A stretch of DNA of 27,349 bases, taken from a virus. The translations under genes and the position numbers were made by a program. Numbering within the stretch: the first letter of the stretch is position 1; each line of letters opens with the position of its first letter. The notes under the pieces are model-generated. The model saw only the letters and a list, made by a program, of their open reading frames with translations. It was not told the origin of the DNA and did not search any database. This document shows positions 7,671 through 27,100 of this stretch, piece after piece. The stretch covers positions 1 to 27,349 of the IMG/VR virus record IMGVR_UViG_3300044655_001163; one strand, given 5' to 3'.

Positions 7671-8726
7671 ATGGCATTAAATTTAGGTGGTTTATTTAAC
7701 CAATCAGCTGGTAGCTTACCTACCCGTGCATTAACCGGTGGCGGTAAAGATGTATTTTCTTTATTAAACCCAAGTAACGCACGTAATGCCATATCTGGCT
7801 TGTTGCCAGGTGGTATGAGTAGTGAAGCTAAAAGTACACCAAACATAGGCTTCCAAAGTGCAAATGGTACCGGCGGAGCCACTGCGGCTAATGAGGACGA
7901 TTGGCGAGTAAGAATAAGTCTATCTCCTAAAGCTAAAATTTGGTATCAAGATCCTACAATGCTACCTAATGCACTAATGTATCCATTAGTTGAAACTAAC
8001 GGAGTTATATTTCCGTACACCCCTGCAATCACAGTTACTCATAACGCAACTTACTCTTCAGCAAGCCTTACACATAGTAATTATCCTGCATATTTCTACA
8101 ACAACTCAGAAGTGGCAGCTATTACAATCAGTGGAGACTTTACGGTACAAAATCCCAGCGACGGCCAGTACCTAATGGCTGCAATATACTTTTTCCGCAG
8201 TGCTACTAAGATGTTCTTTGGGCAAGGCGATAACGTAGGCAACCCGCCACCAATTGTGTTCTTAGATGGATACGGTAGTCACTACTTCCCACACATACCT
8301 TGTGCAGTTACATCATTCCAGCACACCTTGCCAGATGATGTTGACTATATTCAAGTACCTATCAGTAGAACTACCCTACAAGAATCACAGATTTCACCAC
8401 CAAGTGTGACAAATAATACCACGCCAGATCTAGCAACTAACAGTATTACTGGTCCTAACGGAGAAATCTATGCGCCAAATTGGGGAGCCACTGGGTCTGC
8501 ATCGGGTGATGCCAAATTAGCAGCTAACAATGCCAGAGCTAATACTACAAAAACAGAATATAATACAATCACCACAACATCACGCTTACCGACAAGAAGC
8601 TCAGTTTCTATAACACTACAACCAATGTACAGCCGTAAAAATCTTGCTGACAACTTCGATCTTAATAAATTTGCACAAGGATTTTTATTGGCTAACAGCG
8701 ATACTGGTGCAGGAGGATTTATCTAA
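7671..8726 (+). CDS. Baseplate tail-tube cap-like protein (T4 gp48/gp54 type)
   Basis: A 351-aa virion protein. The N-terminal 75 residues are Gly/Ser/Asn-rich and low in complexity. The conserved core follows: WRVRISLSPKAKIWYQ (78-93), GVIFPYTPAITVTH (111-124), YFYNNSEVAAITISGDFTVQ (141-160) and YLMAAIYFFRSATKMFFG (167-184), with another strand-rich block near the C-terminus (RSSVSITLQPMYSRK). I recall this core from T4-like marine phages, where the gene sits directly before gene 53 and is annotated as baseplate or tail-tube cap (gp48-like). Whether it corresponds to T4 gp48 or gp54 cannot be decided here, so no symbol is given. A ribosome site (AAGAGG) and a late-promoter-like motif precede it. 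The last base of its TAA stop is the first base of the next ATG, so translation should be coupled. Confidence 0.72.
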   Translation: MALNLGGLFNQSAGSLPTRALTGGGKDVFSLLNPSNARNAISGLLPGGMSSEAKSTPNIGFQSANGTGGATAANEDDWRVRISLSPKAKIWYQDPTMLPNALMYPLVETNGVIFPYTPAITVTHNATYSSASLTHSNYPAYFYNNSEVAAITISGDFTVQNPSDGQYLMAAIYFFRSATKMFFGQGDNVGNPPPIVFLDGYGSHYFPHIPCAVTSFQHTLPDDVDYIQVPISRTTLQESQISPPSVTNNTTPDLATNSITGPNGEIYAPNWGATGSASGDAKLAANNARANTTKTEYNTITTTSRLPTRSSVSITLQPMYSRKNLADNFDLNKFAQGFLLANSDTGAGGFI

Positions 8727-9028
8727 TGGCAACAAATTACGGCAAAGCTAGTCCCTATTCAAAAACAGATTTTTATGGGTTTTTTATGGATGTGGCCACA
8801 ATTCCTAGCATACCCATTGATCCTAAGGATGTACAATATCAAATTGATGCTATCTATAAACAACGTCCCGACCTATTAGCCTACGACTTATATGGCGACC
8901 CTAAATTATGGTGGGTATTTGCTATACGAAATCCCAATGTTATTCAAGACCCTATATATGATTTTGAGCCCGGGGTAACTATCTATATCCCACAAAAACA
9001 AAATCTAGTAGCAAGTTTAGGACTTTAA
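8726..9028 (+). CDS. 53: Baseplate wedge protein gp53
   Basis: A 100-aa protein with the features of gp53 in T4-like phages: a short N-terminal part (SPYSKTDFYGFFMDV), then LLAYDLYGDPKLWWVFAIRN and PIYDFEPGVTIYIP. The D-x-Y-G-x-x-x-L-W-W-x-I-A-x-x-N signature followed by a LysM-like G-x-x-I-x-I-P end is shared with many contractile-tail baseplate proteins. In T4, gp53 completes the wedge and helps join wedges around the hub. This version is about half the length of T4 gp53 (196 aa), apparently keeping only the conserved core, as is common in marine relatives. A strong AGGAGG ribosome site lies in the end of the preceding gene, and the start overlaps that gene's stop by one base. Confidence 0.88.
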   Translation: MATNYGKASPYSKTDFYGFFMDVATIPSIPIDPKDVQYQIDAIYKQRPDLLAYDLYGDPKLWWVFAIRNPNVIQDPIYDFEPGVTIYIPQKQNLVASLGL

Positions 9029-9040
9029 TGAGAAGTATCA

Positions 9041-12000
9041 ATGGATAATCGAATCACGTCACTAACCCCAGCCACACGAGCCCTGGCTCAACAGCTCATT
9101 GACGCTTGTGCTGCTGCAGGGGTGCCAATCAAACTTACCAGCACACTAAGAACTGTAGCAGAACAAGATGCGTTATATGCACAAGGCCGTACCGCACCTG
9201 GGCAGATTGTTACAAATCTTAAAGGTGGTCAGGGAATACACGAAACAGGACAAGCCTTTGACGTTATACCTGTAAATGGTGGATATCATGCTTCACAAGC
9301 AACCTGGGATAAGATTGGTTCCATTGGTGAAGGTTTAGGGTTAGAGTGGGGCGGGAACTGGAAGGGCTTTAAGGATTTACCGCACTTCCAATTACAAGGT
9401 GCAAAACCCGGCAGGCCGTCACCGGGCTCGGCCCCAAGTGCGCAGCCTAGCTTAAGTGGAGTGCCCTGGACTGGGCCAATACCGTCTGAATCAGATAACG
9501 TTGATAGAGCAACTCCTGGCACCGATATTTTTATAGTGCAAAATGCGCCACCAATACCTAATAGACTACATCGATATGCCAGTTATATCTATTCTTTAAG
9601 TCTACACATGATGACCAATGAAGAATACGACAATTTAGTTGTAACGCAGGAATACTCGGCTAAAAATGTCATTATAGCCAGTGCAGGGCGCCACAGTGCT
9701 AATTTCCAACGTAATAAAAATTGGATCGAAGATTTCTATTTTGAAAACTTCAGCATGAAGACTATCATAAGTCCCAATGACGAATCAGGTAATACAAACG
9801 CCATTAGCTGCAATTTTGAAATTATAGAACCATATGGCTTTACAATGGTTGAACGAATTATCAAAACTACTGAAGATTTAGGTGGTAGTAATTACCTTGA
9901 CATGCCCTATCTAGTACAGATTGATTTTTTTGCTATCGACGACGCCGGAGAAATTACCGGTGCGGTTCCGGAATTACAGAAACGTTTTCCGATTAAACTT
10001 AATAAATTAGGCATTAGAATTACAGAACGTGGCGCTGTATACGACTTTAGAGCATCACCATACGGTCACGCAGCATTTGAAAGCACTACAGTGACGGTAC
10101 CAGCCAATATGGAAGTAACATCACGAACTATAGTTGATTTCTTTAAAAGCAGTGAAGACACATCCGTTGGTGGCCTTAATCAAGCCATTCAGCAGTTTGA
10201 CACGAATCAGCGAGAATCGACCTCTCCATCTACGGGTACACCTGCAACGCTTAATGCTGACTCGTTTGGCACTGCTATTAATGCCTATTACAAAGGGTTA
10301 AAAGACGCAGGCAAAATAGCCATAGCAGATGTATATCGTTTTGAATTCTTACCCGACCCCGACACAGGGCAAGATATCTTAGGAACAGCAACGTTTATAG
10401 AAGATAAACGTAATACTCCTAAAGAAACCCCAATGAAGAAAAACGAAAGCATTAAAGATGCTGTCAGCATGAGAATGGCCGATATCGGCAGTAGTCAAAA
10501 CACATACGATACTAGTAGGGGTATTTTTAGTATTAATTATGGCACAACAATTGACAAATTATTAGAATATGTAATACGTAACAGTTCTTATATCCACGAC
10601 CAATTGGTATTACCTGATGGTATATCCAATGAAGAATACAAAGCCCGCAAGGACGCGATGAAAGATAAGCCACTTAAATGGTTTAGAATTATTCCTAAGG
10701 TAAGACCACTGGGCTTTGATAAAATAAGAAAAATACAAGCTAAAGAAGTAACCTACACTGTTAAGCCTTATAAGATGTATAACTTACGTAGCGATATTGC
10801 GCCGCAAGGAACAGTAGTTACACCAGTTAAGGCATACAACTATTTCTTTACAGGAAAGAATAGCGATATCATTCATTTAGATATTGTGTTTAATACATTA
10901 TATTATACTCAACAAACTGCCTATAGAAGTAGCATGGCCAGCCAAAATCCCACAGGCGATAGTATTACTACAAACTATGAATTTCAAAATGCTCCTAACT
11001 ATTCGGGAGGCGATGCGCCTAAAGGTATTAACTATGACGCAGTAATGCCTCTAGTAATGAAACCTGTTGTGCAAAACTCTAAAGCAGTGGCCACTGGCAA
11101 TCCAAGTACTGCTAAAGAAGTCGGTGCAGCTGACCTAGCAGATAGTATTATGAGTAGTAGTGAAGCAGACATGCTTAGAGTAAAGATGACCATCATTGGT
11201 GATCCCGACTATATTAAACAAGACGATATATTTTACGGTGCAGACACATCAAATTCTTTAAGAGTTAGTTCAGAAATTGACAAGCGTTTGTTGCCTGATG
11301 GTGGCAGTCTTGTGATGGATGACGGTAGTTTATACGTACAAGTATTGTTTAAGGTTCCTAGAGATATAGACGACAGCACAGGCTTTATGAAATATGATGC
11401 AGGTGAGCGAAATAGTGTGTTTAGCGGATTGTATCAAGTGCTTAGTGTAACTAGTACATTTGCCAAAGGACAATTTACTCAAGAGCTCACGATGACCAGA
11501 ATACCAAGACAGGTAGCATTTGATTATGTAAGTAGAAATAACAATCAATCGGCAGAACGTCCTGGCTCAGCTACTGTAGCTGCAACCCCAGTGCAACAAG
11601 CACCTAACCCACCCACGACAGATACTGCCACAGCAACTGACACAGCCGGAGATCAAATTCCAGGGCAAGAACAAGCGGCACCCATAGCAAATAACACCGA
11701 AGCTGCACCATCTACACAACAACAAGATTTAGCGGCAGTTAGGGCCGCCGGAGTTGCAACAGATATTAACAATCAAAATGCTCCAGTTGCAGTGTCACCG
11801 CTGCCAGTTCCGACCGAAGCAGATAATAATGCACAGTTCTTGGGTAAAGCAAAAGTAATAGCACAACAAGTTAAAGATCTAGTAATGCAACGCGATAGTG
11901 TTTATAACTCGTATAGATCTACCGATAGCGGACTGACCAGAGTCGAAGATCAGTTGATTGCTGATGACCCGGCCAATGCTGATTTGAGTGAAAAAGAACT

Positions 12001-12229
12001 AGCAGCCAAATCACAAGAATATGCTACATTGTTAGCAAGAAAACAAAATCTACTAGCACAACAAAAATCGCTAAATCAACAAATAGTAGATACAGCAAAC
12101 TCAATCCCGGCGCTAGGGTTTAGTATGAATGCAACAATTCAGTCTAGTGTGCAGTTTAACACCACAGCAAGAGGTCCTAACCCATCAATTGTTGTTGGCG
12201 GACAAACAATATTAGAGCAACAATATTAG
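9041..12229 (+). CDS. Baseplate hub protein with N-terminal M15 (VanY-like) peptidase domain
   Basis: A 1062-aa fusion. Residues 1-120 form an M15 (L-alanyl-D-glutamate/VanY type) peptidase with STLRT (Arg37), zinc ligands His67 and Asp74 in GIHETGQAFDV, LEWGGNW (102-107), and Asp112/His115 in KDLPHFQL, spaced like the catalytic Asp and third zinc ligand of the T5 endolysin. A Pro/Ser/Gly linker follows. The large middle (from about 160 to 820) contains RLHRYASYIYSLSLHMM, NYLDMPYLVQIDFFAIDDAG and similar blocks that I recall from baseplate hub/structural proteins of marine T4-like phages. Then comes a Pro/Ala/Thr/Gln-rich spacer (about 830-930) and a C-terminal coiled coil (about 934-1023). 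It probably sits at the hub and cuts peptidoglycan stem peptides during infection. All M15 catalytic residues seem present. The exact T4 equivalent (gp27-like?) is uncertain. Confidence 0.82.
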   Translation: MDNRITSLTPATRALAQQLIDACAAAGVPIKLTSTLRTVAEQDALYAQGRTAPGQIVTNLKGGQGIHETGQAFDVIPVNGGYHASQATWDKIGSIGEGLGLEWGGNWKGFKDLPHFQLQGAKPGRPSPGSAPSAQPSLSGVPWTGPIPSESDNVDRATPGTDIFIVQNAPPIPNRLHRYASYIYSLSLHMMTNEEYDNLVVTQEYSAKNVIIASAGRHSANFQRNKNWIEDFYFENFSMKTIISPNDESGNTNAISCNFEIIEPYGFTMVERIIKTTEDLGGSNYLDMPYLVQIDFFAIDDAGEITGAVPELQKRFPIKLNKLGIRITERGAVYDFRASPYGHAAFESTTVTVPANMEVTSRTIVDFFKSSEDTSVGGLNQAIQQFDTNQRESTSPSTGTPATLNADSFGTAINAYYKGLKDAGKIAIADVYRFEFLPDPDTGQDILGTATFIEDKRNTPKETPMKKNESIKDAVSMRMADIGSSQNTYDTSRGIFSINYGTTIDKLLEYVIRNSSYIHDQLVLPDGISNEEYKARKDAMKDKPLKWFRIIPKVRPLGFDKIRKIQAKEVTYTVKPYKMYNLRSDIAPQGTVVTPVKAYNYFFTGKNSDIIHLDIVFNTLYYTQQTAYRSSMASQNPTGDSITTNYEFQNAPNYSGGDAPKGINYDAVMPLVMKPVVQNSKAVATGNPSTAKEVGAADLADSIMSSSEADMLRVKMTIIGDPDYIKQDDIFYGADTSNSLRVSSEIDKRLLPDGGSLVMDDGSLYVQVLFKVPRDIDDSTGFMKYDAGERNSVFSGLYQVLSVTSTFAKGQFTQELTMTRIPRQVAFDYVSRNNNQSAERPGSATVAATPVQQAPNPPTTDTATATDTAGDQIPGQEQAAPIANNTEAAPSTQQQDLAAVRAAGVATDINNQNAPVAVSPLPVPTEADNNAQFLGKAKVIAQQVKDLVMQRDSVYNSYRSTDSGLTRVEDQLIADDPANADLSEKELAAKSQEYATLLARKQNLLAQQKSLNQQIVDTANSIPALGFSMNATIQSSVQFNTTARGPNPSIVVGGQTILEQQY

Positions 12230-12240
12230 GATAATAAGAT

Positions 12241-14289
12241 ATGGCAATAGATAGTAGAGCCGGCAATAAGGTTATTAAAAATGCTCGTCGTGAAGATGCG
12301 GCAGGTACCCGTGTTGATCCGTATCCCTATATTGGTATTATTAAAAATAACTTAGACCCGACCCGCAGTGGTAGATTACAAGTTTATATTCCGGACCTAG
12401 GTGGTCCTGAAGATGATCCAAAAAACTGGCGCACAGTTAGTTTCACTAGTCCGTTTTTAGGCTACACTAGTCAAACACAATCGTCAACTGATCGTCCTAG
12501 TCAAGAAAATAAATTTGGTACAGTGCACCACACCTATGGTATGTGGATGGTGCCACCAGATATCGGTGTGCAGATTATTGTAATTTTTGTAGCCGGTGAT
12601 CCGTTGCGTGGCTACGGACTAGCATGTGTTAATCCGCATTTAAGTCATTATATGATGCCTGGCTTAGCTGGGACATCAAATGTTGATCGTAATAGTTTAA
12701 CCCCGGGGCAGCGTAAACAAATTCAGGAAGGTGATATTGTACCGGTTGTGGAGTTTAACCAATATACCAGTGATTTTACTAACGCTGCATTCTATAACAA
12801 TAACAAACCGTTACATACGTATCAGTATTCAATATATCAAAAACAAGGCTTAGAAAGAGATATTGTCCGTGGCCCAGTTTCTAGTAGCAGCCAACGAGAA
12901 AGTCCTAGTTTTGTATTTGGTATTAGTACACCCGGTCGCCCTGTTAATGACCCAGCAGATGATCCAAGTTATCTGCCAGATCTCGAAGCTGGCAAATTAA
13001 ATTCTAAATATACCGAGGTAAAATCACGCAAAGGCGGCCACGTATTCTTAATGGATGACGGCGCTACCACAGGCGAAGACCAACTTATTCGATTACGTAC
13101 AGCGGGTGGTCATCAAATTTTAATGCACGACAGCAACGAGTCACTGTATATTGCTCATGCCAACGGTTATAGCTGGGTAGAATTAACTAAAGATGGTAAA
13201 ATTTTAGCCTACAGCAAACGTGGTATGGCCTTACGTACAGAAGGTACATTTGACATACACGCCGACGGTGACTTTAATCTTGATGTAGGTGGCAAAATTA
13301 ATATCAAGGCAGGTACTAGTCTAAAATTAGAAACACCTCTAATAGATTTTCTTGCTGAAGGTAAATTTAATGTAACTGCAAATTCTGGTACTGAATTTAA
13401 GGTAGGCGTATTTAAAGTAGATTCAGCCGCAAAAATTGGTCTTAAAGCCGGAGGCATAATTGCACTTGAGGGTGCTAGCATTAAACAGAATAGTGGCGGC
13501 ACAGATTCATTAAAAGCTATAACTCCTATACAAACCCGTAAACTGCCCGAAGTAACTGGCTCTGGAGGCACGTGGTCAAGTAAACCCGGCGCTCTAGAGT
13601 CTATTGTAACCTTTGCACCCACACACGAACCGTATGACCGTGGTACCAGAGCCAGAGCATTTATACCAACAAGCCCTGGTATACAACCTAATGCTTCCTT
13701 CTCGGGTACTGATGCAACTAAAAGCGATACAACTTTAACTGCGGGTGTAGAAAACGCAGCTACCCCTAAAGATATTCGTAATCAACCACCTGCGGTTGCA
13801 CCAGCTGGTTCACTGACTAAAGATCAAACTACTGCCTTGATGTCGCAGCTAGGACAGGGCAATGACTATACTACCACTGGCAGTGATGGTAAACTAGGCA
13901 AATATCAATTGGATTACAAAGCATTACAAGAGCAAGGCTATATTAAGAGTACAGTGACCAGCAACGATCAATTGACTAACCCTAATAGCTGGACAAACAA
14001 AAACAGTATCACCGATGCAACTAGCTTTTTAAGCAACAAAACAGAACAAGAAAGTGTGATGTCAGCAGTAACTAATCAAAATTACACTAACCTACTGGCT
14101 AGCGGTGCTATTACAGCTGAACAAATTGCAGCCGATGTTGCTGGCATGATGAGTGTAGCTCATAAGTTAGGCTCAGATGCTGCACTATCATTTAGATCAG
14201 GTAGCGGCCCTGGCGCAGAATTGTTTAACCAAGGCAAATATGCAGTTAGCGTGCTGGCACCTAAACTACCAAGTATCAATGCTGGATAA
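12241..14289 (+). CDS. 5: Baseplate central spike / hub protein gp5-like
   Basis: A 682-aa protein with an N-terminal gp5/VgrG OB-fold (residues about 27-130: YPYIGIIKNNLDPTRSGRLQ, VYIPDLGG, MWMVPPDIGVQIIVIFVAGD). A C-terminal-type repetitive beta-helix spans about 290-420, with alternating strands (SLYIAHANGYSWVEL, GTFDIHADGDFNLDVGG, KINIKAGTSLKLE). It should form the trimeric membrane-piercing spike. Unlike T4 gp5, no lysozyme domain is visible between OB-fold and helix. Instead, residues about 530-665 (GKLGKYQLDYKALQEQGYI, LTNPNSWTNKNSI, DVAGMMSVAHKLG) form an alpha-rich domain that I recall from marine phage spikes, possibly lysozyme- or transglycosylase-like or cell-wall binding. AGGA precedes the ATG, 11 bases after the hub gene. 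The stop codon overlaps a late-promoter-like motif for gene 25. Confidence 0.85.
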   Translation: MAIDSRAGNKVIKNARREDAAGTRVDPYPYIGIIKNNLDPTRSGRLQVYIPDLGGPEDDPKNWRTVSFTSPFLGYTSQTQSSTDRPSQENKFGTVHHTYGMWMVPPDIGVQIIVIFVAGDPLRGYGLACVNPHLSHYMMPGLAGTSNVDRNSLTPGQRKQIQEGDIVPVVEFNQYTSDFTNAAFYNNNKPLHTYQYSIYQKQGLERDIVRGPVSSSSQRESPSFVFGISTPGRPVNDPADDPSYLPDLEAGKLNSKYTEVKSRKGGHVFLMDDGATTGEDQLIRLRTAGGHQILMHDSNESLYIAHANGYSWVELTKDGKILAYSKRGMALRTEGTFDIHADGDFNLDVGGKINIKAGTSLKLETPLIDFLAEGKFNVTANSGTEFKVGVFKVDSAAKIGLKAGGIIALEGASIKQNSGGTDSLKAITPIQTRKLPEVTGSGGTWSSKPGALESIVTFAPTHEPYDRGTRARAFIPTSPGIQPNASFSGTDATKSDTTLTAGVENAATPKDIRNQPPAVAPAGSLTKDQTTALMSQLGQGNDYTTTGSDGKLGKYQLDYKALQEQGYIKSTVTSNDQLTNPNSWTNKNSITDATSFLSNKTEQESVMSAVTNQNYTNLLASGAITAEQIAADVAGMMSVAHKLGSDAALSFRSGSGPGAELFNQGKYAVSVLAPKLPSINAG

Positions 14290-14297: not shown

Positions 14298-14678
14298 ATG
14301 GCCGGCGCAACGTATAAAGGATTTAGTACATTAGGAGCAAGCAGAAATTTCCGCTTGACTGACTTTGACTTAATCAAACAAGATATCATAAATCATTTCA
14401 ATATCCGCAAAGGTGAGAAGTTGATGAACCCTAACTTTGGTACAATTATCTGGAACGTTCTATATGAACCGTTTACAGAAGATTTAAAAAGCGTAATCAT
14501 ATCAGACATATCAGCCGTTGCTGGCTATGATCCTCGTGTTAGTTTTGATAATATCATAGTTACAGAATACGACCAAGGTATTCAAATTGAACTGCAATTA
14601 CGCTACGTCCCAACCAATCAAATTAATACAATGCTGTTAAATTTTAACGGCGAATCTCAATCTCTTTCTGCGCAGTAA
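14298..14678 (+). CDS. 25: Baseplate wedge subunit gp25
   Basis: A 126-aa protein of the gp25/'Gene 25-like lysozyme' family, close in length to T4 gp25 (132 aa). The family core is visible: NFRLTDFDLIKQDIINHFNI, RKGEKLMNPNFGTIIWNVL and YEPFTEDLKSVIISDI, then the two-strand end (DNIIVTEYDQGIQIELQLRY). The 'lysozyme' name in family databases reflects an old claim; in contractile tails gp25 (and its type VI secretion homologue TssE) is a wedge protein contacting gp6 and gp53 and seeding sheath assembly. It sits between the spike and gene 6, as in many marine T4-like phages. No ribosome site is seen before the ATG; see the promoter-like motif at 14285-14292. Confidence 0.95.
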   Translation: MAGATYKGFSTLGASRNFRLTDFDLIKQDIINHFNIRKGEKLMNPNFGTIIWNVLYEPFTEDLKSVIISDISAVAGYDPRVSFDNIIVTEYDQGIQIELQLRYVPTNQINTMLLNFNGESQSLSAQ

Positions 14679-14729: not shown

Positions 14730-17700
14730 ATGGCAATTACCACAAGACAATCGAGTTTATTAGTTGCAGAGGACTGGACAAAAGTCTATCAGACCTTCCG
14801 TAACGCTGACTTCCAAAGCTACGATTATGAAACTATTCGTGCTTCGATGATTAGTTACCTTCAGTTGTACTATCCAGAAGACTTCAACGACTATATCGAA
14901 TCAAGCGAATTTATTGCATTAATCGATATGATTGCCTTCTTAGGTCAATCATTGGCCTTCCGTGGTGATTTAAACGCTCGCGAAAACTTCATTGATACTG
15001 CACAACGTCGTGACAGTGTATTAAAACTAGCACGATTAATATCATACAACCCTAAACGCAATATCAATAGCAGAGGCTATTTAAAATTTGACAGTGTGTC
15101 AACAACTGAAACAGTATTCGACAGTAACGGTATTAATCTAAGCGGTCTAGTGGTTAATTGGGCAGACAGTGCTAACAGCAATTGGTTAGAACAATTTACT
15201 ATTATCTTAAATGCTGCGTTAGAAAGCAATCAAATGATCGGCAAGCCTGCAGGCAGTCAGACTATTGCAGGTGTTAACGTAGAAGAATATAACATAAATT
15301 ATGTTCCTGGTAGATTGTCAGTTTACCCATTTAAAGCCACAGTGGCTGGTACTAGTATGGATTTTGAATTTGTAAGTCCCACTAGCACAGGCGAAAGTTA
15401 TGTATATGAAACGGCACCATTTGTAAGTGCACCGTTTAATTTCTTATACAAAAATGACGGGCTAGGTAATGGCAGCAATAATACAGGTTACTTCTTGTAC
15501 TTTGTACAAGGTATTATACAATCGCGTGATTTCAACTTTGCGGAAAGTATCCCTAACCGCATTTTTAATATCAACGTAAACAACATCAATAACAGTGACG
15601 TTTGGTTATACAGTGTAAACAGTGATGGTACGTTAGGACAGCTATGGACACAGGTTCCTGCTGTGGCTAATACTAATGTTATCTATAACAATAGTTCAAA
15701 TCGTAATATCTATCAGGTAAACACACAGGCTGCCGATCAAATTGATTTAGTATTTGGTGACGGCGCATTTAGTAATATTCCGCAAGGCAACTTCCGTGTA
15801 TATTATAGAGCATCAAACGGTTTGCAGTACAAAATTACACCTGACGAAATGCAGGGTGTGGTTATGTCTATTAATTACGTCAGCCAATCGGGCCGTGTCG
15901 AAGTATTAAACATCTCAACCAGTCTACAATACACTATTGCTAACTCAAGTACACGTGAAAGTCTAGACGACATACGTCAAAAAGCTCCACAACAATTCTA
16001 TACACAGAATCGTATGATCACAGGTGAAGATTATAACATCTTACCTTACACGCTATTCAGTAACATTTTAAAAGTAAAAGCAGTTAATCGTACAAGTTCT
16101 GGGGTTAGTCGTTACCTAGATGTTATTGACGCAACTGGCAAATACTCAAGCACTAACATCTTTTCACAAGATGGCATGTTATATCGTGACAGTTTAACTG
16201 ACACATTTAGCTTTGACTTCTTTACAACCAATGACATCTATCGTACGATTTACGATCGTGTGGCACCAATTGCACAGTCAACAGAAACACAACAATTATT
16301 CTACGCCGACTATCCGTTGATTACCTTAACAGATGTATATTGGCACACATCAACTACAATTGCCAACGGTTGTACTGGTTTTTTCGTCGATGTAGCAGGT
16401 AATATCCTACAAATTGGTGATATAGTTGCTAACAGCAACAAATACATTCGCCAAGGTGCGATTGTTAGATTTAGCGCAGGTGCAGGCAATTATTTTGATA
16501 GCCAAAACTATGTACGCACAGGTACTCCTAGCAAATCAGGCGACAAATATTATGTATATGCAGCTATTGAATTAGTAGTGGGTGATGGTACTAATGGTGG
16601 GCAAGGTAATTTAGCCAGTGGTGCAGGACCTGTTACACTAAATCAAATTATTCCAGCAGTGGGATTGGACGGTAATGAACAAACTATCATTGGTGATAAA
16701 GTGTTTGCTGTGTTTAATGTTGATTTTCCTAACGCACTAGTACAGTCTATGGTAGGCTATATACAAGCCTATGCTAACTTTGGCCTACGCTACGACACAG
16801 ACACTGGTACTTGGAAAATTATATTACCAACAGATTTAGACTTGGCTGATGACTTTAGTCTAACATGGGCGGGTGATACTAGCGGCCAGGCCAAAGATGC
16901 TAGCTGGATTATCGCTTTTCAAACAGTAGGTAAAACATACACAGTATTATATCACGGATTAAACTACGTGTTTGAAAGTGTATTAGAAACTAACTTCTAC
17001 TATGATGGCGCTACAAAGATTTTTGATGCTAAAACGGGACTAACAGTACACGATCAAATTAAGGTGTTAAAAGTTAATAGCAATCCTGATGATAGCAACC
17101 CATTGGCATTGGATTATATATGGTACATCAATAAGTCGATTACTGAAGTTGACGGATATGTAAATATTGATAAAATTTATATAACATTCAGCGACAGCGA
17201 CAATGACGGCATACCCGATAATCCTGAACTGTTTGATCTTATTGTGAACCCTACGGTAAACACTGCTGAAAAATACGTATACTTCCAAGACACTGTTGGT
17301 TACGATAACTTTGTTATTCAAACTCCTGTAGATAATGCCACAGTGGTGTCATCGTACAGTACCTTGCGTGCAATCGAACAGGCTAAAACACTATATCAAA
17401 CAGGACAATTATTTTACATTCCTAATTTAGATATATTCTATCAATTGACTGTGAGCGGTGCAGTGTTTGCAATTAACACAGTTACGGGGTACACAGCTAA
17501 ATTAGGGCGCCAAGATTTGTACTTCCAATATCGTCATAACAGTCCTAACAACAGACGTATTGATCCGAGCCCAAATAACATCATTGACTTGTATGTATTA
17601 ACACAGCAATATTCAATTGATTATCTGGCATGGATACAGGATACCTCTGGACAAGTTTCACAGCCGATGGAGCCCACCAGTGAAGAATTGCAACTTGACT

Positions 17701-18149
17701 ACAGTACCCTGGACAACTATAAAGCAATCAGCGACACTATCATTTATAATCCTGCTAAGTTTAAACCTTTATTTGGTAGCAAAGCAATACCTACATTGCA
17801 GGCCACGTTTAAGATAGTTAAAAATCCTAATGTAGTAGTTAGTGATAACGAAATTAAAACCAGTGTAATCGCAGCGATCAACACATATTTTGATGTCGGT
17901 AATTGGGACTTTGGTGAAACGTTTTACTTCAGTGAACTAGCAAGTTATTTGCATGTTCAACTAAGTCCCAATGTTTCTAGCATTATTATTGTTCCTGCTA
18001 ACCAAGCAGATGCATTTGGTAGTTTGTTACAGGTAAATGCTAACATTAATGAAATTATTACAAGCGCAGCCACTGTAGACAATGTACAAATTATTACAGC
18101 GATTACTGCAGCACAATTGAATCAAACTGGCGCAATCATAGTAAGTTAA
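14730..18149 (+). CDS. 6: Baseplate wedge subunit gp6
   Basis: A 1139-aa protein whose N-terminal region is typical of gp6 in T4-like phages: YDYETIRASMISYLQLYYPE, SEFIALIDMIAFLGQSLAFR, NARENFIDTAQRRDSVLKLA and LISYNPKRNINSRGYL. The rest is beta-rich with a Baseplate_J-like organisation; RESLDDIRQKAPQQFYTQ and MITGEDYNILPYTLFSN resemble the conserved central block of gp6/gpJ proteins. gp6 forms the ring that holds the wedges together and rearranges on contraction. It is considerably longer than T4 gp6 (660 aa), with extra strand-rich segments after about residue 480. A late-promoter-like motif precedes it and the giant structural gene starts 17 bases after its stop. It is expected to contact gp25 and gp53. 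Confidence 0.93.
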   Translation: MAITTRQSSLLVAEDWTKVYQTFRNADFQSYDYETIRASMISYLQLYYPEDFNDYIESSEFIALIDMIAFLGQSLAFRGDLNARENFIDTAQRRDSVLKLARLISYNPKRNINSRGYLKFDSVSTTETVFDSNGINLSGLVVNWADSANSNWLEQFTIILNAALESNQMIGKPAGSQTIAGVNVEEYNINYVPGRLSVYPFKATVAGTSMDFEFVSPTSTGESYVYETAPFVSAPFNFLYKNDGLGNGSNNTGYFLYFVQGIIQSRDFNFAESIPNRIFNINVNNINNSDVWLYSVNSDGTLGQLWTQVPAVANTNVIYNNSSNRNIYQVNTQAADQIDLVFGDGAFSNIPQGNFRVYYRASNGLQYKITPDEMQGVVMSINYVSQSGRVEVLNISTSLQYTIANSSTRESLDDIRQKAPQQFYTQNRMITGEDYNILPYTLFSNILKVKAVNRTSSGVSRYLDVIDATGKYSSTNIFSQDGMLYRDSLTDTFSFDFFTTNDIYRTIYDRVAPIAQSTETQQLFYADYPLITLTDVYWHTSTTIANGCTGFFVDVAGNILQIGDIVANSNKYIRQGAIVRFSAGAGNYFDSQNYVRTGTPSKSGDKYYVYAAIELVVGDGTNGGQGNLASGAGPVTLNQIIPAVGLDGNEQTIIGDKVFAVFNVDFPNALVQSMVGYIQAYANFGLRYDTDTGTWKIILPTDLDLADDFSLTWAGDTSGQAKDASWIIAFQTVGKTYTVLYHGLNYVFESVLETNFYYDGATKIFDAKTGLTVHDQIKVLKVNSNPDDSNPLALDYIWYINKSITEVDGYVNIDKIYITFSDSDNDGIPDNPELFDLIVNPTVNTAEKYVYFQDTVGYDNFVIQTPVDNATVVSSYSTLRAIEQAKTLYQTGQLFYIPNLDIFYQLTVSGAVFAINTVTGYTAKLGRQDLYFQYRHNSPNNRRIDPSPNNIIDLYVLTQQYSIDYLAWIQDTSGQVSQPMEPTSEELQLDYSTLDNYKAISDTIIYNPAKFKPLFGSKAIPTLQATFKIVKNPNVVVSDNEIKTSVIAAINTYFDVGNWDFGETFYFSELASYLHVQLSPNVSSIIIVPANQADAFGSLLQVNANINEIITSAATVDNVQIITAITAAQLNQTGAIIVS

Positions 18150-18166: not shown

Positions 18167-21100
18167 ATGGCAACAAGAAAAACCTATAAATTTTTACCTA
18201 CCGTATTCCAAAGTGATGCTAATAAGAAATTCTTAGCCGCTACAATGGATCAGTTAGTAACTGAACCAAACTTAGAGACGCTTTATGGATATATTGGTCG
18301 TAAATTCGCCCCTACATATAAAACTGGTGATAGTTATGTTGTTGAATACAACTCGACTAGACAGAATTATCAGCTAGAGCCGGGGGTTGTAATCAAAGAT
18401 GAACAAAACAATGTTATCTTTGTTGCTGACTATATTGATCTATTAGATAAAATTGGATATTATGGTGGATTAACAAATAATCACAGTCGTTTATTTGAAC
18501 AAGATTATTATACGTTTGATCCTAGGATTAGTTTTGACAAATTAATTAATTTTAGTCAATACTATTGGCTACCAGATGGACCTGACCCGGTTGATGTAAA
18601 CACCAGCGGGGTTGATTTAACGATTACCTACACCGTGACACGTGATGCTGCTAACGGTCGTTATATATTTAGAAACAACGGTGTTGTTGATAACAGTATT
18701 ATTTGTGCCCGCGGCGGAGTTTATGAGTTTGTAGTTGACCAACCGGGTGTGCCGTTTTGGATTCAAACAGAGACTGGTATAGACGGTGTAGTTAGTGCTA
18801 CTCCTACCTTAAGTTCACGCGATGTATTTGGCGTAGAAAATAACGGTGCTGATAACGGTATAGTAACATTCAAAGTACCACAAACCTACGCACAAGATCG
18901 TTATGTCAATATGCCTACTGTGTTTAGTGTAGACTATGCTACTCCTATCCCGTACAGTCAGCTAGCTAATAAAACATTAAGCCAATTTTTAACCGCATAT
19001 CCACAATATGCAGGTATCACAGGTCGACTAAACGGCAGATATACTATATTTGTTGATGTTAACACGTGGACAAATGCAGGCGAAGACGCCTGGACTAATC
19101 CTGTAGTAGTTGATAATGATGGCGATATTATTCCGGGGTACGATGCCAATGCGGTCATTGCTGAAGAAGATCGTTATGACATATGGCGTGTGGTTTATGT
19201 TGACATTGGTCAAAAATTACGTTTAGATACACCTATTGCTGCAAATATTATTGCTGGTACAAGTTTAACAGTGGGGAGTCAGATAGTATCATTGTTATAT
19301 GACGCAACTGTAGGTCAAGAATATGTTTATGTTCCTGATACTATTACTATATCAGCTAATGCAACTATAAAACGTACAGATGTCATAACTGCACTGTCTG
19401 CAACTGCATCTGGTACTAACGAGATCACTGTTACGACTACAACCGGCTTGGTAGCAGGCATGCCTGTGATATTTGTTGGAAACCCAGCAGTGGGGGGAAT
19501 AATTTCAGGTACTACTTACTATATTAAAGATGTTACTTCAGTAACAACATTTACAATCAGCGACACGGTTAGTGGAAGTGAATTTATCTTAACCAACGGC
19601 ACAGGAGTAATGAATGTAACAGCGTCGTATACAGATATTGCCAGCGGCACCATAGTTACAAGTATTGCATCCGGTGATCCGTTACTTAAACTGATTCATA
19701 CACAGGACGTAGCAGTTGATGAGAAAGTTTATGTCAAACTTGGCATTGCAAATGCTAATAAAGAATTTTTTAAAGATTACGATGGCTTCTTTGCTACAGT
19801 TCCGTTATTAACCTCACAAAATAATCAATTATGGATTCAAGATGGACTGTCACCACGCATCTACACCCCAATCAAAGTTATACAATATTCTGGGTGGACT
19901 ATTGACGTAGAGACTGATATCATCGGACAACAATACTATACTAGTCCCAACGGTATTGAATTTACATCAGGCCTTAAAGTACAATTTGGTGACGACGTAA
20001 CTCCTGCATATTATCAAAATCGTCAATTTTATGTTGAACAAGTTGGTGATATTGGTGGTGGCACCCAACTAGTGCCCGTCGACGAACTGATAACTCCAGA
20101 ATCATATATCGACGAGATTGCAGTAAATTACCCGGGTGAATATTTTCCTGATTACATCACAATCAATCGTTCTAGTCGTGAGCGCAACGCCTGGGCACGA
20201 AACAATCGATGGTTCCATGTTGATGTAATTACCGCTACAGCGACCTACAATGGTACTATTCCAACCTTTAGTAATGGTATTCGTGGTCAGCGTCCTATTG
20301 TACAATTTGAATCTAATATGCAATTAGTCAATGACGGTAGAGTTGCAAAGGCGCCAATTGGCATATTAGACACGACTATTCAGAATGCATTCGTCGACCT
20401 ACAAGGTAAAACATATACTAGTGTATTTGGCATTGAATTATTTGACAGCAACGGAGATATTGTCTACCCAAATGGGCTACGTGTAATTTTTGGTAACGAT
20501 ACTGACTCGTTAGTTAAAAATAAAATTTATCTATTGACTTTAGTTCAATATAGTCTAAACTCATTACAATTACCCTCGGGTCCATATTACATCGAACTTA
20601 CAAAAGCAGTTGATGGTGATGTTAGTGCTTACGATACCACAGTGGTTAAACTTGGAATTAATAAAGGTAGCCAATGGTGGTTTGATGGGGTCAATTGGAA
20701 TCGTAGCCAACAAAAAGAATATCTACAACAACCGCCGCTGTTTGATGTATTAGACAGCAAATTAAATCTTAGTACCGGGCAGGTTGTGCAAGGCAAGAGC
20801 TTGGGCCAATATACCCGTAGCACATTTATAGGCACACAGATATTCGGCTATGATCGTGCCACATCAGGTACCACAGATACTGTATTAAGTAGAGGTCCGG
20901 TTGCACCCATATTCGATGCAAACGGTAATGCTATTACTAACTTCTATTTAAGTTATAAAAACTTTACAACCCAAGGTGATATTAAATTTCAAAATTTCTT
21001 TAATACAGATACCTTTAGTTATGTAGATGATTCCGGTAAGATTGTATCACAGAATATTAATTTAGGATATGTTCAAAAAATTATAGATAGCCAAACATTG

Positions 21101-24100
21101 GAGCCAAAGAATACATGGCTAACAGTGCCTGAGCAAAGTAAACAATATCAATTATTCAGCTTTGTTTATACAGAACCATCAGACCCTGATAATTATCTAA
21201 ACATCAACGGCTATACTGACACATTTACCTTAGACATTACACCAGTAAGTGATGAACAATCTATTCCTTATGTAAAAGTATTCCGAAATTTTGTATATTT
21301 AAAACCTACAACTGAATGGACAATTATAGGTAATCAAATTACTATTAACATTACATTAAATATCAACGATCAAATTGATATTTTAGTGTATAGTAACGAA
21401 ATAAGTTCTACTGCATTTTATCAAGTTCCACAAAACTTAGATTTAAATTCACAGAACACGGATATTAACAGTTTAACACTAGGACAATTACGTAACCATT
21501 TAGTGGCATTGGCTCAAAACAGTACCATCGTTGAGGGTGACGTACTAGCACAAAGTAACCTACGTGACATTGACATTAAACAACAAGGTGGTACTATTCT
21601 TAAACATAGTGCACCTGTGCCATACGCAAGTTTATTCTTAATCGATGACCAGGCTAATTTTATTAATAGTGTTCGTTATACACAACAAGAATACACTAAA
21701 TTTAAAAACAAATTCTTAGAATTAAGCACTAGTCTCGAAGGCATTGACCCAACTGACCCTATAGGCAGCGTTGATACGATTTTAACAAGAATTAATCTTG
21801 TTAAAAATAAATCATTCTCTTGGTATTACAGTGACATGGTACCTTACGGTCCGTTAAAAAATATTGTCGGACAAATAGGAGCAATCGACGGATTTGAAGT
21901 ATTTGACCCGTTAAAGACAAATTACGAAATTACAAATATTTTCAATGATACAAAACTGAGCAATCAGGCAGTATTGGTATATTTAAACGATCAGCAACTC
22001 ATTAAAGGCATTGACTACAACTTTAGAACAGATACTCCAAGTATTGATTTTAATATTACCTTAACAGTTGGCGACATTATTAAAATTGTTGAATACAGTA
22101 ACACCGATGGCAACTATGTTCCGGAAACTCCAACTAAACTCGGATTATGGCCTAGTTATACTCCGGAAATCTTTGTAGATGACACATATAGAACGCCTAC
22201 TACAGTTATTCGCGGGCATGACGGCAGTATTACTCCTAGTTTCAACGACTATCGCGATAACTTCTTGTTAGAATTAGAACTACGTATCTATAACAATATC
22301 AAGTTATCTGCTAATACAACATTTAGCGACATTTTTAGTGTAATTCCTGGTAAATTTAGATCTAGTGATTACACCTTAGCAGAATCAAATCAAATATTCA
22401 GTCAAAGTTTCTTAAACTGGGTTGGCAATAACAAACTTGATTATACTGTTAATGATACTTTTGACCCTAATGATCCGTTTACTTGGAACTATCGTGCAAG
22501 CCGTGATCGAGTGGATGGTGAATTATTACCGGGTAGTTGGCGTGCTTGTTATATGTACTTCTATGATACATATCGCCCGCAGTTAACACCGTGGGAAATG
22601 CTAGGATTTGCTAGTATGCCGGCCTGGTGGCAAGGCTTCTATGGCCCTGCACCGTACACTGGCGCAAATAAAGTTTTATGGGATGACTTAGAAGCAGGGT
22701 ACATCCGTTACGGTGATCGTCAAGGTATAGACCTAAATTATGCTCGCCCAGGACTATCGGGATTTATTCCTGTCGATGAAAATGGTAATTTAATTAGTGT
22801 GGCACAATTACTATGCCGCACATTTAATAACAAGCAATCGGGGGCTGCATGGGCAATCGGCCAACAAGGTCCTGTAGAATTTGCATGGCGTATGAGCAGT
22901 GACTTTCCATTTGCTGCTCAACAGGCATTGGCGTTATTAAAACCAGCTAAGTATTTCGGTACATTGATTGATGTAAACTCTTACACACCATTGAACGCAT
23001 TGTATAGTCGCTCGACTGATGTGCAGGGTATTACAACAGAAACTACTCAGTATCTTGAAGACAGTACAAATAGACAGATTACACAGTCAGCGGTTGACTA
23101 TAACGGTGATACTAGTTCCGGTACTGTTTATCGCGGCGCAGGATATATCAACTGGATTACTGAATATTTGATTAACCAAGGCGTTAGTCCAGTAAAATAT
23201 CTATTACCGTTAATACAAAACTTCCAAGTAAATTTAACCTATAAGGTGAGTGGATTCACAGATCAGAAATATTTAGAGGTATTGGCTGAACAAGTCAGTC
23301 CAACAAGTACCAATGATAGTATTCTTATACCCAATGAAAACTATAAAATATTCTTAAATGAAAAACCAGTGGCCATAGATGAAATCATTTACAGTGCGCT
23401 TATTATTGAGAAAACAACCAACGGTTACAGTATACGCGGTTATGATTTGTTTAACAGTTACTTTACAATCATACCAAGTATCGTAAACAACAACGTTAGC
23501 AAAATTAAAGTATTAAACAGTACAGCTACGATCTATAATGATTATCAAAATCTATTAATGAATGTACCTTACGGCTACGAGTTTAATACACAACAACAAG
23601 TAGTTGATTTTATGATCAGCTACGAACGCTATCTAATAGCACAAGGATGGACATTTACTGACAGTGATCCTCAATTGAACGAAATTAAGAATTGGCGTTT
23701 GAGCGCACGTGAGTTCTTATATTGGGCACAACAAGGGTGGAAGCCGGGCAGCATATTAGTTGTAAGTCCAGTTTCGAATACATTAAATGCTATTACTAGC
23801 GGCGCAGTGACAGAGGGTATTGAAGATAGTCAATACGGCAGCAGAGTAGTCGACCAAAACTTTAATCTTATTAAGAACAATAATTATGCAGTATATAGAA
23901 CACCTACGGAGTTTAAACTAGAACTACAAGATGCAGCTAGTGTTATTGGTTATGTAAAAGTTGCCTTGGTACAATATGAACACACATTAATATTTGACAA
24001 TACCACAGTGTTCAATGATGTTATCTATCAACCAAGCAGCGGTAACCGCCAGTTCCGTTTAAAACTAATTGGTCAACGTACAGCAGATTGGGACGGCAGT

Positions 24101-27100
24101 CTAAGTCCAGAAGGCTATGTATATAATAGCGGCGCAGTAGATGCATGGTACCAAGGTCAAGATTATCTTAAAGGTGATCTAGTACAATACAAGAGTCAAT
24201 ATTATACTGCTCTTCAAGATATTCCTGCTAATGAAACATTCCAGTTCCAAATTTGGCAGGTATTAGGCAAGAACGAAATACAAACAGGTCTATTGCCTAA
24301 TTTTAGCACAATTGCTGTAGAAAGTCAATCATTTTATGATAGTTATGCTAAGATACGTAACAAAAATCAAATGGCCTACAGTCATGCACTTATTGGCTTT
24401 AGAGAACGTCAATACCTTAGTGATTTAGGTCTAACAGAAACAACACAAATTGAATTCTACAAAGGGTATGTAGCGCAAAAAGGTACTAAGAATGCAGTTG
24501 ATGCATTTACCAAAGCGACTATTAACAACTTAACTAGTAACATTGCACTATATGAAGAGTGGGCAGTGCGTGTTGGTGAATACGGTGCCCTAACTAGTAA
24601 CCCGTTTGTTGAAATTGCTTTAGATGAAAAAGCATTTGGCGTAAATCCTAGTGTGGCAAGTTTCGTAGATGCGGCTGATAATAATCTAGCCAATGGAATT
24701 ACAGTATTCAACAGTACACAATTGTACAAATCATACGGTGCGTATTCTGCAAACGTTGCTTTAAATAGAACTGAAAACAGCGACTATGACAACGACATTC
24801 CCACAGCGGGATATGTAAACATTGACGACGTTAACTTACAAATCTTTGACTTGACAAATTATGTTGACTTGGATAATAAGATTGCAGATATGGGCAGTGG
24901 TTACCTAATTTGGGTAGCTAAAGACTTTACGCAAGATTGGAATGTATTTCGTGTAACAGAAACTAACAATCAGATCACCGCAGTGACAAATAGTCTAAAT
25001 GGATATATTACATTTACTACAGATAATCCACACGGTCTTTCTAAATATGATATATTCTTAGTTAAGAATTTTGACGCAGCCTACAACGGCTTCTATCAAA
25101 TATTACGTGTAACCGGAGCATCGAGTCTTTTGGTAAGATATACAGGTGATATTACTAACCTAGGTAACTTAACCACTCAGACTGGTAGTGGTATGTTATT
25201 TCGGTTAGATAGTATGCGCTTCAAATACATGGAAGATAGTCGTGTATACGGCCTAAGCAACCCGCCCAATGGATGGAAAGTTGGCGATAAGATTTGGATA
25301 GACGATGATGCAGAAACTACCTCAGTACAAGGTCAACCATATGGCACACAACCTAGCGGTACATGGAAGGTATATGAAAAACAAACGCCGTGGAATTTAG
25401 ATCAAGAAGTAACCAAAGGTGGCAGTGAATACGTACCCAATGATGGATTTGGCACAGCAGTAAAAATGTCAGCAGATGGATTAATTATTGTTGCTGGCGC
25501 CGCGCAACAAGGACAGATTCAATTTACCACAACAGGATACTTAAATGCCAATGTAGGTGCGTATATTGAGCAAGTAACTTCAGGGGCTAACTTAACTTTG
25601 GTTGGCAACCTAGGCGGTAATCTCTATGCAGGGCAATACAACAACAATCAGATATTTGACGCAGTTGGAAATCTGTCAGTGCTTTCTATAGATACTGGTG
25701 CTAAATTTGTATCATCTATTACACGTGTTGGATATGTAAATACCTTCCTTAAAAATTATTCAGGTGATTTTGATGCAGGACTCACGCTCAATCCAACTGC
25801 TGCAAACACTTACGCATACGGTCATTCGGTAGAATTAGCAACCACAGCCGCAGGTGATACTAAAGTGGCAATTGGTGCACCTAGTAGTTGGTCCGGCAAT
25901 GGCTACGTATATATCTATGACAAAATATTATCGAGCTACTCGTTTGATCGTGGCCAAATTCTTGTAAGTAATGTTACCGGAGACCAATTTGGTTACAGCC
26001 TAGCATTTAACCAGACTGGTGAATGGTTATATGTAAGTGCACCGGGCAATAACAGCGTATATGCCTACGGGTTACAACGGTATGTTCCGGTACAAACTCA
26101 ACTTGCATCTGTTAATAACAAAAATACTATATATTTAAATAGCCCTATTTCAGCTAATCCAACAGATGTACTAATACAAGCAAATACTGGTGCAAGAACT
26201 TCTATTCTTAGTGTAGTTTCTAGCACAGAAATTGTTGTTGATAATATTACAAATTTTGTAAACGCACCGACAAGTACAGACGGCAATGTACTTGTTGGTA
26301 ATTTAACTATACTTGCTAATATTAGTGTTTTAAGTAGCGGTAATTTAATAACATACAGTGCTTACCCAATTAATCTAATAAGCAATGCCGCAGTAAGCAG
26401 CATTCAAATAAATTCATTTACACCGGACTTTACTTCGGGTAGTGATGCAAATAGTTTATTAATTACTAACTTAGATAAAACATTTATTCCTTACGTTGAT
26501 TATGTATTTGACTATAGCACACGCACAGTTAATTTTATTAATAACGGTAACGTTGCTAGCCCGGCTAATATTTCAGCCACCACAGTTACTATCACACAAC
26601 GTCCTTACTATGCACTAGTGCAAAAATTAACTGTGCCTACTGGTAATAGTTGGGCACAGTTTGGTTATGCTATTTCATCAAGTTTTGATGGCGCACAGGT
26701 GGCTATTGGTGCTCCCGGTGACACTGTTTTGGACGGTAACGATATATTACAACGAGGTGCAGGTGCTGTTTATGTGTACGATCGTGTCATTGAAGCATTT
26801 AATTCAGTTACCGATGCAGTAACTGGCACCGGCGGTCAAGACTACACTACTGAAAATAACATTGCAACTGTACATAAAGTTACCATTGACGGTGTCGAAA
26901 ACACAGCATACACTGTGGTGGGCACTAATACAATTAGATTTACTAATCCGCCTGTAATAGGGCAGGTTATTCTTATTGAGGTTAATAAATTTAACTACCT
27001 AGAACGCCTAATTGGTGTGGATAGTTTAACAGGTGGGTTGGCTGCAATTCAAGCAAACGCTGCGTTTGGTACAAGTTTAACAATTTGTAGTAATAACTGT

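Follow-up and report, generated by a model that had tools for sequence, protein, structure and literature searches.

In the phage studied here, an M15 peptidase at the N-terminus of a gp27-type baseplate hub is likely to be the active, virion-borne enzyme of cell-wall penetration, beside a spike whose C-terminal domain, without catalytic glutamate, is probably a pseudo-enzyme; the hub N-terminus itself appears to be exchangeable. The probability of this reading is put at roughly 0.65. The window, by which the whole analysed stretch of 27,349 bases is meant, is an IMG/VR virus record and a fragment. By sequence and predicted fold, a peptidoglycan-degrading domain here sits in a structural protein.

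The hub protein and its N-terminal domain

The genes of the baseplate block lie in the order 351-aa structural protein, gp53-like protein, hub, gp5-like spike, gp25 and gp6, and a late sigma factor and an SbcD-like gene are found on the opposite strand. On the plus strand, to which all coordinates below refer, the gp53-like baseplate wedge gene (8726-9028) adjoins the hub upstream and forms the conserved left border of a variable site. The hub frame is open throughout 9041-12229 and yields 1062 aa. It comprises the M15 domain (aa 1-120, 9041-9400), a Pro/Ser/Gly-rich linker (aa 121-166, 9401-9538), a gp27/VgrG-type core (aa 167-850, 9539-11590) and a C-terminal extension (aa 851-1062, 11591-12226) with long helices predicted at about aa 926-1020. 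Within the block, as also in the named phages compared below, the hub gene adjoins that of the spike (682 aa, 12241-14289). The gp25-like (14298-14678) and gp6-like (14730-18149) wedge genes follow; the latter was used for placing the phage and its product is 36.8% identical to gp6 of Agrobacterium phage Atu_ph07. A giant tail-region frame of 3061 aa, still open at the window end, occupies 18167-27349, and a sister contig has, apparently at the same place, a giant frame of 4857 aa (L271:2205-16775).

Residues 1-120 of the hub match PF13539 (Peptidase_M15_4) with E 2.8e-10 and 41 bits, and VanY with E 5.8e-7 and 29.8 bits, the Pfam cut-off being 25 in both cases. Four PHROG families named endolysin are matched with E values from 7.7e-32 to 3.4e-24. 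In the PDB, the matches include the L-Ala-D-Glu peptidase 2vo9 (E 3.6e-22), which we take to be the Listeria phage endolysin Ply500, and LysB4 (6akv, E 4.7e-19). As sequence matches, these are far beyond chance. Arg37, His67, Asp74, Asp112 and His115 each face an identical residue of 2vo9 in the alignment, and the five presumably correspond to the zinc ligands (His/Asp/His), the catalytic Asp and the conserved Arg of Ply500. The M15 identity and these residues are established by computation. The domain most resembles L-alanyl-D-glutamate endopeptidases, which is its predicted activity; zinc and a substrate of that kind would be expected for it.

The whole hub was folded by AlphaFold2 with 44 hub rows, at a mean pLDDT of 62. 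Confidence is better than this mean for most of the core (roughly residues 170-820) and poor for the M15 part, with pLDDT in blocks of 26-75, probably because only three alignment rows cover it. Twenty-three M15 rows added to deepen the hub alignment were scattered by MAFFT over the hub core and were removed again. The top Foldseek matches of the model are hubs of eCIS, T6SS and phages, with T4 gp27 (1k28_D) at E 1.4e-5. By VIA-align, 7b5h_AJ reaches Z 14.0 (rmsd 3.7, 265 aligned) and T4 gp27 reaches Z 11.6 (rmsd 4.2, 246 aligned), both within model residues of about 174-825. The core is also assigned to PHROG 11190, virion structural protein, and the hub homologue of PA5oct is annotated in its record with ESI-MS/MS as a virion protein. 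On the strength of the model, the 1062-aa protein is the gp27/VgrG-type central hub of a contractile-tail phage and, by analogy with the gp27-type fold, probably a trimer. An earlier note, made from the sequence alone, had named this protein a baseplate hub and had placed in its first 120 residues an M15 peptidase with the same five residues; the fold matches bear out the one statement, and the profile matches, the PDB matches and three haplotypes the other.

These haplotypes come from five other IMG/VR contigs (L002-L006), of different metagenome records, in which the same 1065-codon open frame with M15 is present and the M15 domain is 91-93% identical. L003 and L006 are the same in the hub gene, and the N-terminus of L003 is common to L004-L006, so that three haplotypes remain: window, L002 and L003. 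All five residues are unchanged in them (window, L002, L003, L006). The recurrence in related phages for which the earlier note had suggested a search is found, and the frameshift that it feared might have joined two genes in the assembly is excluded by the five contigs and three haplotypes. From the three pairings of these haplotypes, which are not independent of one another, dN/dS is 0.007-0.010 in the core of the hub, 0.014-0.039 in the C-terminal domain of the spike, 0.09-0.12 in M15 and 0.13-0.31 in the linker, where it is the highest within the hub. Both M15 and the spike domain are under purifying selection.

The N-terminal end of the hub is a variable site flanked by two conserved elements, the gp53-like gene and the hub core. 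In a comparison with nine selected relatives, identity is 58-98% for the 351-aa gene upstream, 63-99% for gp53 and 46-98% for the hub from aa 167; residues 1-120 match L003 only, without a match in any of the eight relatives that lack M15. In the sister L008/L010, the values are 79% for gp53 and 68% for the same part of the hub. The linker (aa 121-166) or its immediate surroundings probably contain the domain-swap junction. Altogether 269 loci were examined, with 169 hubs complete at the 5′ end and 126 distinct ones; eleven of these carry a PF18013 lysozyme, three M15, two a domain here called NNPGN, and 110 none of the three enzyme types. Pfam confirms PF18013 in L011, L012 and L015 (E 1e-27 to 3e-31). 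Pfam gives no match for the NNPGN domain, which is carried by L007 and L027. Among PHROG families it scores best with 873 (E 4.1e-17 for L007, 7.5e-22 for L027), an "endolysin" listed under head and packaging; tape-measure families and those called "tail injection transglycosylase" come next. In the PDB, the L007 domain matches Gp29 (9vvp, E 2.9e-6). In 98 of the 110 hubs without these enzyme types the N-terminus still measures at least 60 aa. A Pfam scan of 76 of the 98, from which 22 hubs including three of named phages were omitted, yielded one LysM, in L395 (L395:5045-5518), and two weak matches (Baculo_PEP_C, Bacillus_HBL); many N-termini among these hubs are of low complexity as judged by eye. 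LysM typically binds peptidoglycan and is not an enzyme.

In the hub tree, the M15 rows form one clade, which is sister to L007 with NNPGN (support 100/99), and both are sister to L011 with PF18013 (100/100); the labels of the N-terminal domain need five changes on the tree. This placement implies that unlike N-terminal domains replaced each other among close kin. As far as their sequences tell, wall-active domains would be exchanged at this site, whether M15, PF18013 lysozyme, the transglycosylase-like NNPGN, LysM or none recognised.

Elsewhere, the M15 domain is found mainly in short proteins. Among 88 domain rows from the best 80 of 351 viral relatives, 76 lie in ORFs of 100-349 aa. The other 12, in ORFs of about 1065 aa, all belong to the hub-M15 clade, several being repeat entries for the same contigs. 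A set of 158 domain rows that includes bacterial genomes, drawn from the best 80 of 351 viral and the best 80 of 120 genome relatives, adds as further ORFs above 400 aa two Luteimonas proteins and one eCIS-type protein. The latter (L323:2374-5595, from a Thermoflexales MAG) has 1073 aa with eCIS_core, M15, GH46 and SH3, and may degrade cell walls in connection with a contractile injection system. An M15 tree of 138 rows and 129 columns did not place the donor; L108, at a path of 1.51, is the nearest outside row among those listed.

The spike and its C-terminal domain

The gp5-like spike has an OB-domain match, which in the window scores 23.0 bits, just below the Pfam value of 23.8, and is above the cut-off in L007, L014, L031 and L027. 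Its last 185 residues (13732-14286) are predicted with pLDDT 94 as mostly helices. Sequence searches with the intact form of this domain gave only sub-threshold Transglycosylase-like matches in Pfam and one unrelated match in the PDB (E 0.28), so a fold search was needed. The top Foldseek matches are MltE lytic transglycosylases (3t36, E 0.019, probability 0.97), with no match at E <= 0.001. In VIA-align, 6cf8 scores Z 11.2 (rmsd 3.2, 141 aligned) and MltE 6ghy scores Z 10.8 (rmsd 3.7, 149 aligned), values at which a helical fold (Z under about 13) may represent a mere common arrangement; ranks 1-29 are all lytic transglycosylases. In intact relatives, ES-G-G is followed by G-Y-V-G-K-Y-Q, a pattern which we take to be that of the lytic transglycosylase class, and a sub-threshold Transglycosylase-like match falls at the same place. 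The spike C-terminal domain is likely to have a lytic transglycosylase fold.

The residues of the ES motif are absent from the window, L002 and L003, where the alignments have a gap at that column; in the window, the site at which relatives hold the extra residues is 13855-13860, at the junction of residues 42 and 43 in the 185-aa piece. In a first set of 70 distinct spike C-domains, the catalytic Glu is present in 56. A gap at the Glu column is seen in nine (window, L002, L003, L011, L016, L017, L023, L024 and L026), Thr in L027 and another residue in L038-L041. When the set is enlarged to 122 distinct domains, Glu is found in 97, a gap in 10 and another residue in 15. The domain without Glu is probably kept folded as a pseudo-enzyme, perhaps with a role in glycan binding.

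In the tree of the domain itself, all nine gap-type sequences from the first set fall into one clade (100/100). The hub tree, in contrast, includes seven of them and rejects their grouping as a single clade (p-AU 3e-47, with a log-likelihood lower by 295); a tree built from the spike N-terminal part likewise splits them. This conflict points to recombination, and the simplest reading is that the spike C-domain or its intact alternative moved between phages.

The spikes of wider relatives have a variety of C-termini. A GH24 lysozyme is present in L051 (E 1.5e-19) and SLT in L045 (E 6.1e-6), and a GH19-like match is sub-threshold in L062 (E 0.033) and visible by eye only in L072, L073 and L086. 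The spike of Atu_ph07 (L182:4205-6802) ends in a trypsin-like domain, PF13365 (E 6.1e-17, aa 700-849), located where the spikes of relatives carry wall-degrading domains. Vibrio phage 2.275.O (L188) has no annotated hub gene at the place where the other syntenic phages have one, between its gp53-like gene and a spike with GH24.

Hub enzyme, spike glutamate and wall penetration

The state of the spike is known for 86 hub rows, 15 with a hub enzyme and 71 without a recognised one. The Glu is missing in 10 of the 15 and kept in 5; among the 71, it is missing in 13 and present in 58. The raw association has a Fisher p of 0.0004, for rows that are related by descent. Gap-type spikes are seen next to enzyme-bearing hubs only (9/9), the gap-type L024 and L026 being without a scorable hub start. 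One clean sister pair is available, L027 (NNPGN, Glu replaced by Thr) versus L232 (no enzyme, Glu kept). Tree pairs differing in hub enzyme number 2-3 in the first set and 3 in the wider one, and Glu changed the same way in a mean of 1.4 and 2.1 of them, respectively. Conversely, 5 and 12 tree pairs differ in Glu, and the hub enzyme differs in just 1.8 and 1.0 of these. About one in twelve of the Glu pairs of the wider set therefore involves the hub enzyme, which indicates that Glu was mostly lost without a recognised one; the FastTree tree of that set, with about 12 Glu changes mostly without a recognised hub enzyme, gives the same picture. Because the rows are related and the contrasting tree pairs too few, no causal claim from hub enzyme gain to Glu loss is made. 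Hub gain as the driver of spike decay was considered and set aside, given that Glu is also lost without a recognised hub enzyme and that the tree-aware tests are underpowered.

The absence of the catalytic Glu from the lytic-transglycosylase-like domain of the spike makes the hub M15 the likely active penetration enzyme in this clade. The peptidase would be carried in the virion on a linker of about 45 residues at the hub N-terminus. Once the sheath has contracted, the tube would carry hub and spike through the outer envelope, and the M15 domains, three of them if the hub is the trimer that its fold suggests, would meet the peptidoglycan on their linkers and cleave stem peptides locally near the tip. 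This local cleavage would open the mesh for the tube, and the strongly conserved spike domain without Glu may still bind glycan. Both the presence of the domain in the virion and the time at which it acts are presumed in this scheme. A further virion enzyme could be encoded beyond the window fragment or within the neighbouring frame of at least 3061 aa.

The earlier note had held that the enzyme class used for penetration changed and moved to another protein. This is plausible for the present clade, with its M15 on a gp27-type hub and its spike without Glu, and it does not hold in general, 5 of the 15 hub-enzyme rows keeping the Glu. The T4 gp5 lysozyme, with which the note had compared the hub enzyme, is not its direct forerunner: the spikes of near relatives end in a lytic-transglycosylase-like domain, and the hub N-terminus is variable.

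It is also conceivable that M15 is active in the virion and accessory only, the main job being done by the spike or another virion protein, so that nothing "moved". The hub-enzyme rows that keep Glu would fit this, as would the several forms of lytic domain on the spikes of the lineage's relatives and the 13 of 71 rows missing Glu without a recognised hub enzyme, from which it follows that Glu loss need not follow the hub enzyme. Yet the ES-motif residues are wholly absent from the clade, and the restriction of the gap type to enzyme-bearing hubs also speaks against it; an accessory role is held to be unlikely, if not markedly so. A hub-attached endolysin serving lysis at the end of the cycle, rather than entry, is quite improbable. 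It would accord with the prevalence of short endolysin-type ORFs among M15 relatives (76 of the 88 rows) and with a scan of the 67-kb sister contig (G002; L269-L272), in which 48 of 57 ORFs of at least 90 aa were covered, leaving aside nine, namely the giant frame and ORFs homologous to genes of the window. No endolysin or lysis family was seen in these 48 ORFs within the first 25 of 32 Pfam families and the PHROGs listed. Nevertheless, this contig is incomplete, and the few hub copies of a virion would seem ill-suited to bulk lysis.

That M15 has lost its catalysis and persists as a relic, or acts as a plug in the structure, is less probable again: it does evolve faster than the hub core (0.09-0.12 vs 0.007-0.010), but its dN/dS is far below 1 and all five residues are kept. 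As to two genes fused by the assembly, nothing was found in favour, and the open frame common to contigs of different metagenome records makes this a negligible prospect. The preferred reading continues to be the virion-borne hub peptidase acting in entry beside the inactive spike domain. A bolder extension of it is tentative and rather doubtful, namely that the N-terminal end of the hub serves specifically as an exchange port for wall-active domains with different chemistries and that, where a hub enzyme is present, the spike transglycosylase tends to become a conserved, mobile glycan-binding pseudo-enzyme matched to such hubs. If this were true, phages could retune wall breaching without rebuilding the tail.

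The 48 scanned ORFs of the sister contig also include six with radical-SAM matches, a carbamoyltransferase, a nucleotide-sugar epimerase, a thymidylate synthase, DHFR and APS kinase.

Comparison with known systems

The hub resembles T4 gp27 in fold (1k28, Z 11.6) and likewise stands next to a gp5-type spike. In T4, the lysozyme is located in the middle of gp5, whereas in the window the peptidase is on the hub and the spike ends in the transglycosylase-like domain without Glu. Ply500 (2vo9) and LysB4 (6akv), which are free endolysins, have the same type of M15 catalytic domain, placed in the window inside a structural protein of 1062 aa. Homologous hub, spike and gp6 are present in the jumbo myoviruses RaK2, GAP32, PA5oct, Atu_ph07 and Phosso; the gene order is that of the window in the first three, apart from small extra genes, and partly so in Atu_ph07 and Phosso. 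The hubs of RaK2, PA5oct and Atu_ph07, the three scanned, gave no Pfam domain, and their spikes end in a GH24 lysozyme (RaK2), the trypsin-like domain (Atu_ph07) or nothing recognised (PA5oct). Vibrio phage phiKT1024 encodes in its tail block an 878-aa "putative peptidase" (UOK16716.1, L274:14491-17127) that matches VanY (E 5.6e-8). There the domain is internal (aa 593-663), and the protein, encoded next to the tail-tube cap gene, would by position be tape-measure-like and not a hub. A probable near-identical homologue in phage Pv27 is called an endolysin.

The series L007, L011 and the M15 clade, together with the pair L027 and L232, offers a natural set of differing domains on one conserved hub, in which it can be asked why phages use one wall-cutting chemistry over another. 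The named gp6 relatives (40 listed of 92 records) infect Gram-negative bacteria.

No printed precedent for M15 on a hub was found in the open-licence PMC literature, where related papers only were met. The closest is that on phage 0305phi8-36, whose gp147, a gp27 homologue, bears a transglycosylase at its N-terminus and NLP and M23 domains at its C-terminus (PMC2147016). Both terminal domains are described there as varying between relatives, and the authors suspect transfer from stand-alone genes. A wall-degrading domain at the N-terminus of a gp27 homologue is thus shared with the window, and a hub-borne lytic domain as such was already known from this source (PMC2147016). The differences are the Bacillus thuringiensis host and the arrangement with transglycosylase N-terminal and peptidases C-terminal; the section on gp147 mentions neither M15 nor an inactive spike domain (PMC2147016). 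What is new here is probably the combination of an M15 domain at the N-terminal end of the hub with a spike that probably ends in a pseudo-enzyme. In the RcGTA, a Rhodobacter phage-like particle, a peptidoglycan peptidase, g14, has been assigned to the tail; it is a separate protein of 150 residues, perhaps inside the tube, not fused to the hub, and its assignment is called uncertain (PMC7296036). According to two reviews, virion endopeptidases are almost confined to phages of Gram-positive hosts (2018; PMC6116005), with phi6 as the one demonstrated case among phages of Gram-negative hosts (2017; PMC5380687). If the host of the window phage is like those of its relatives, the hub peptidase would widen this known range of virion endopeptidases.
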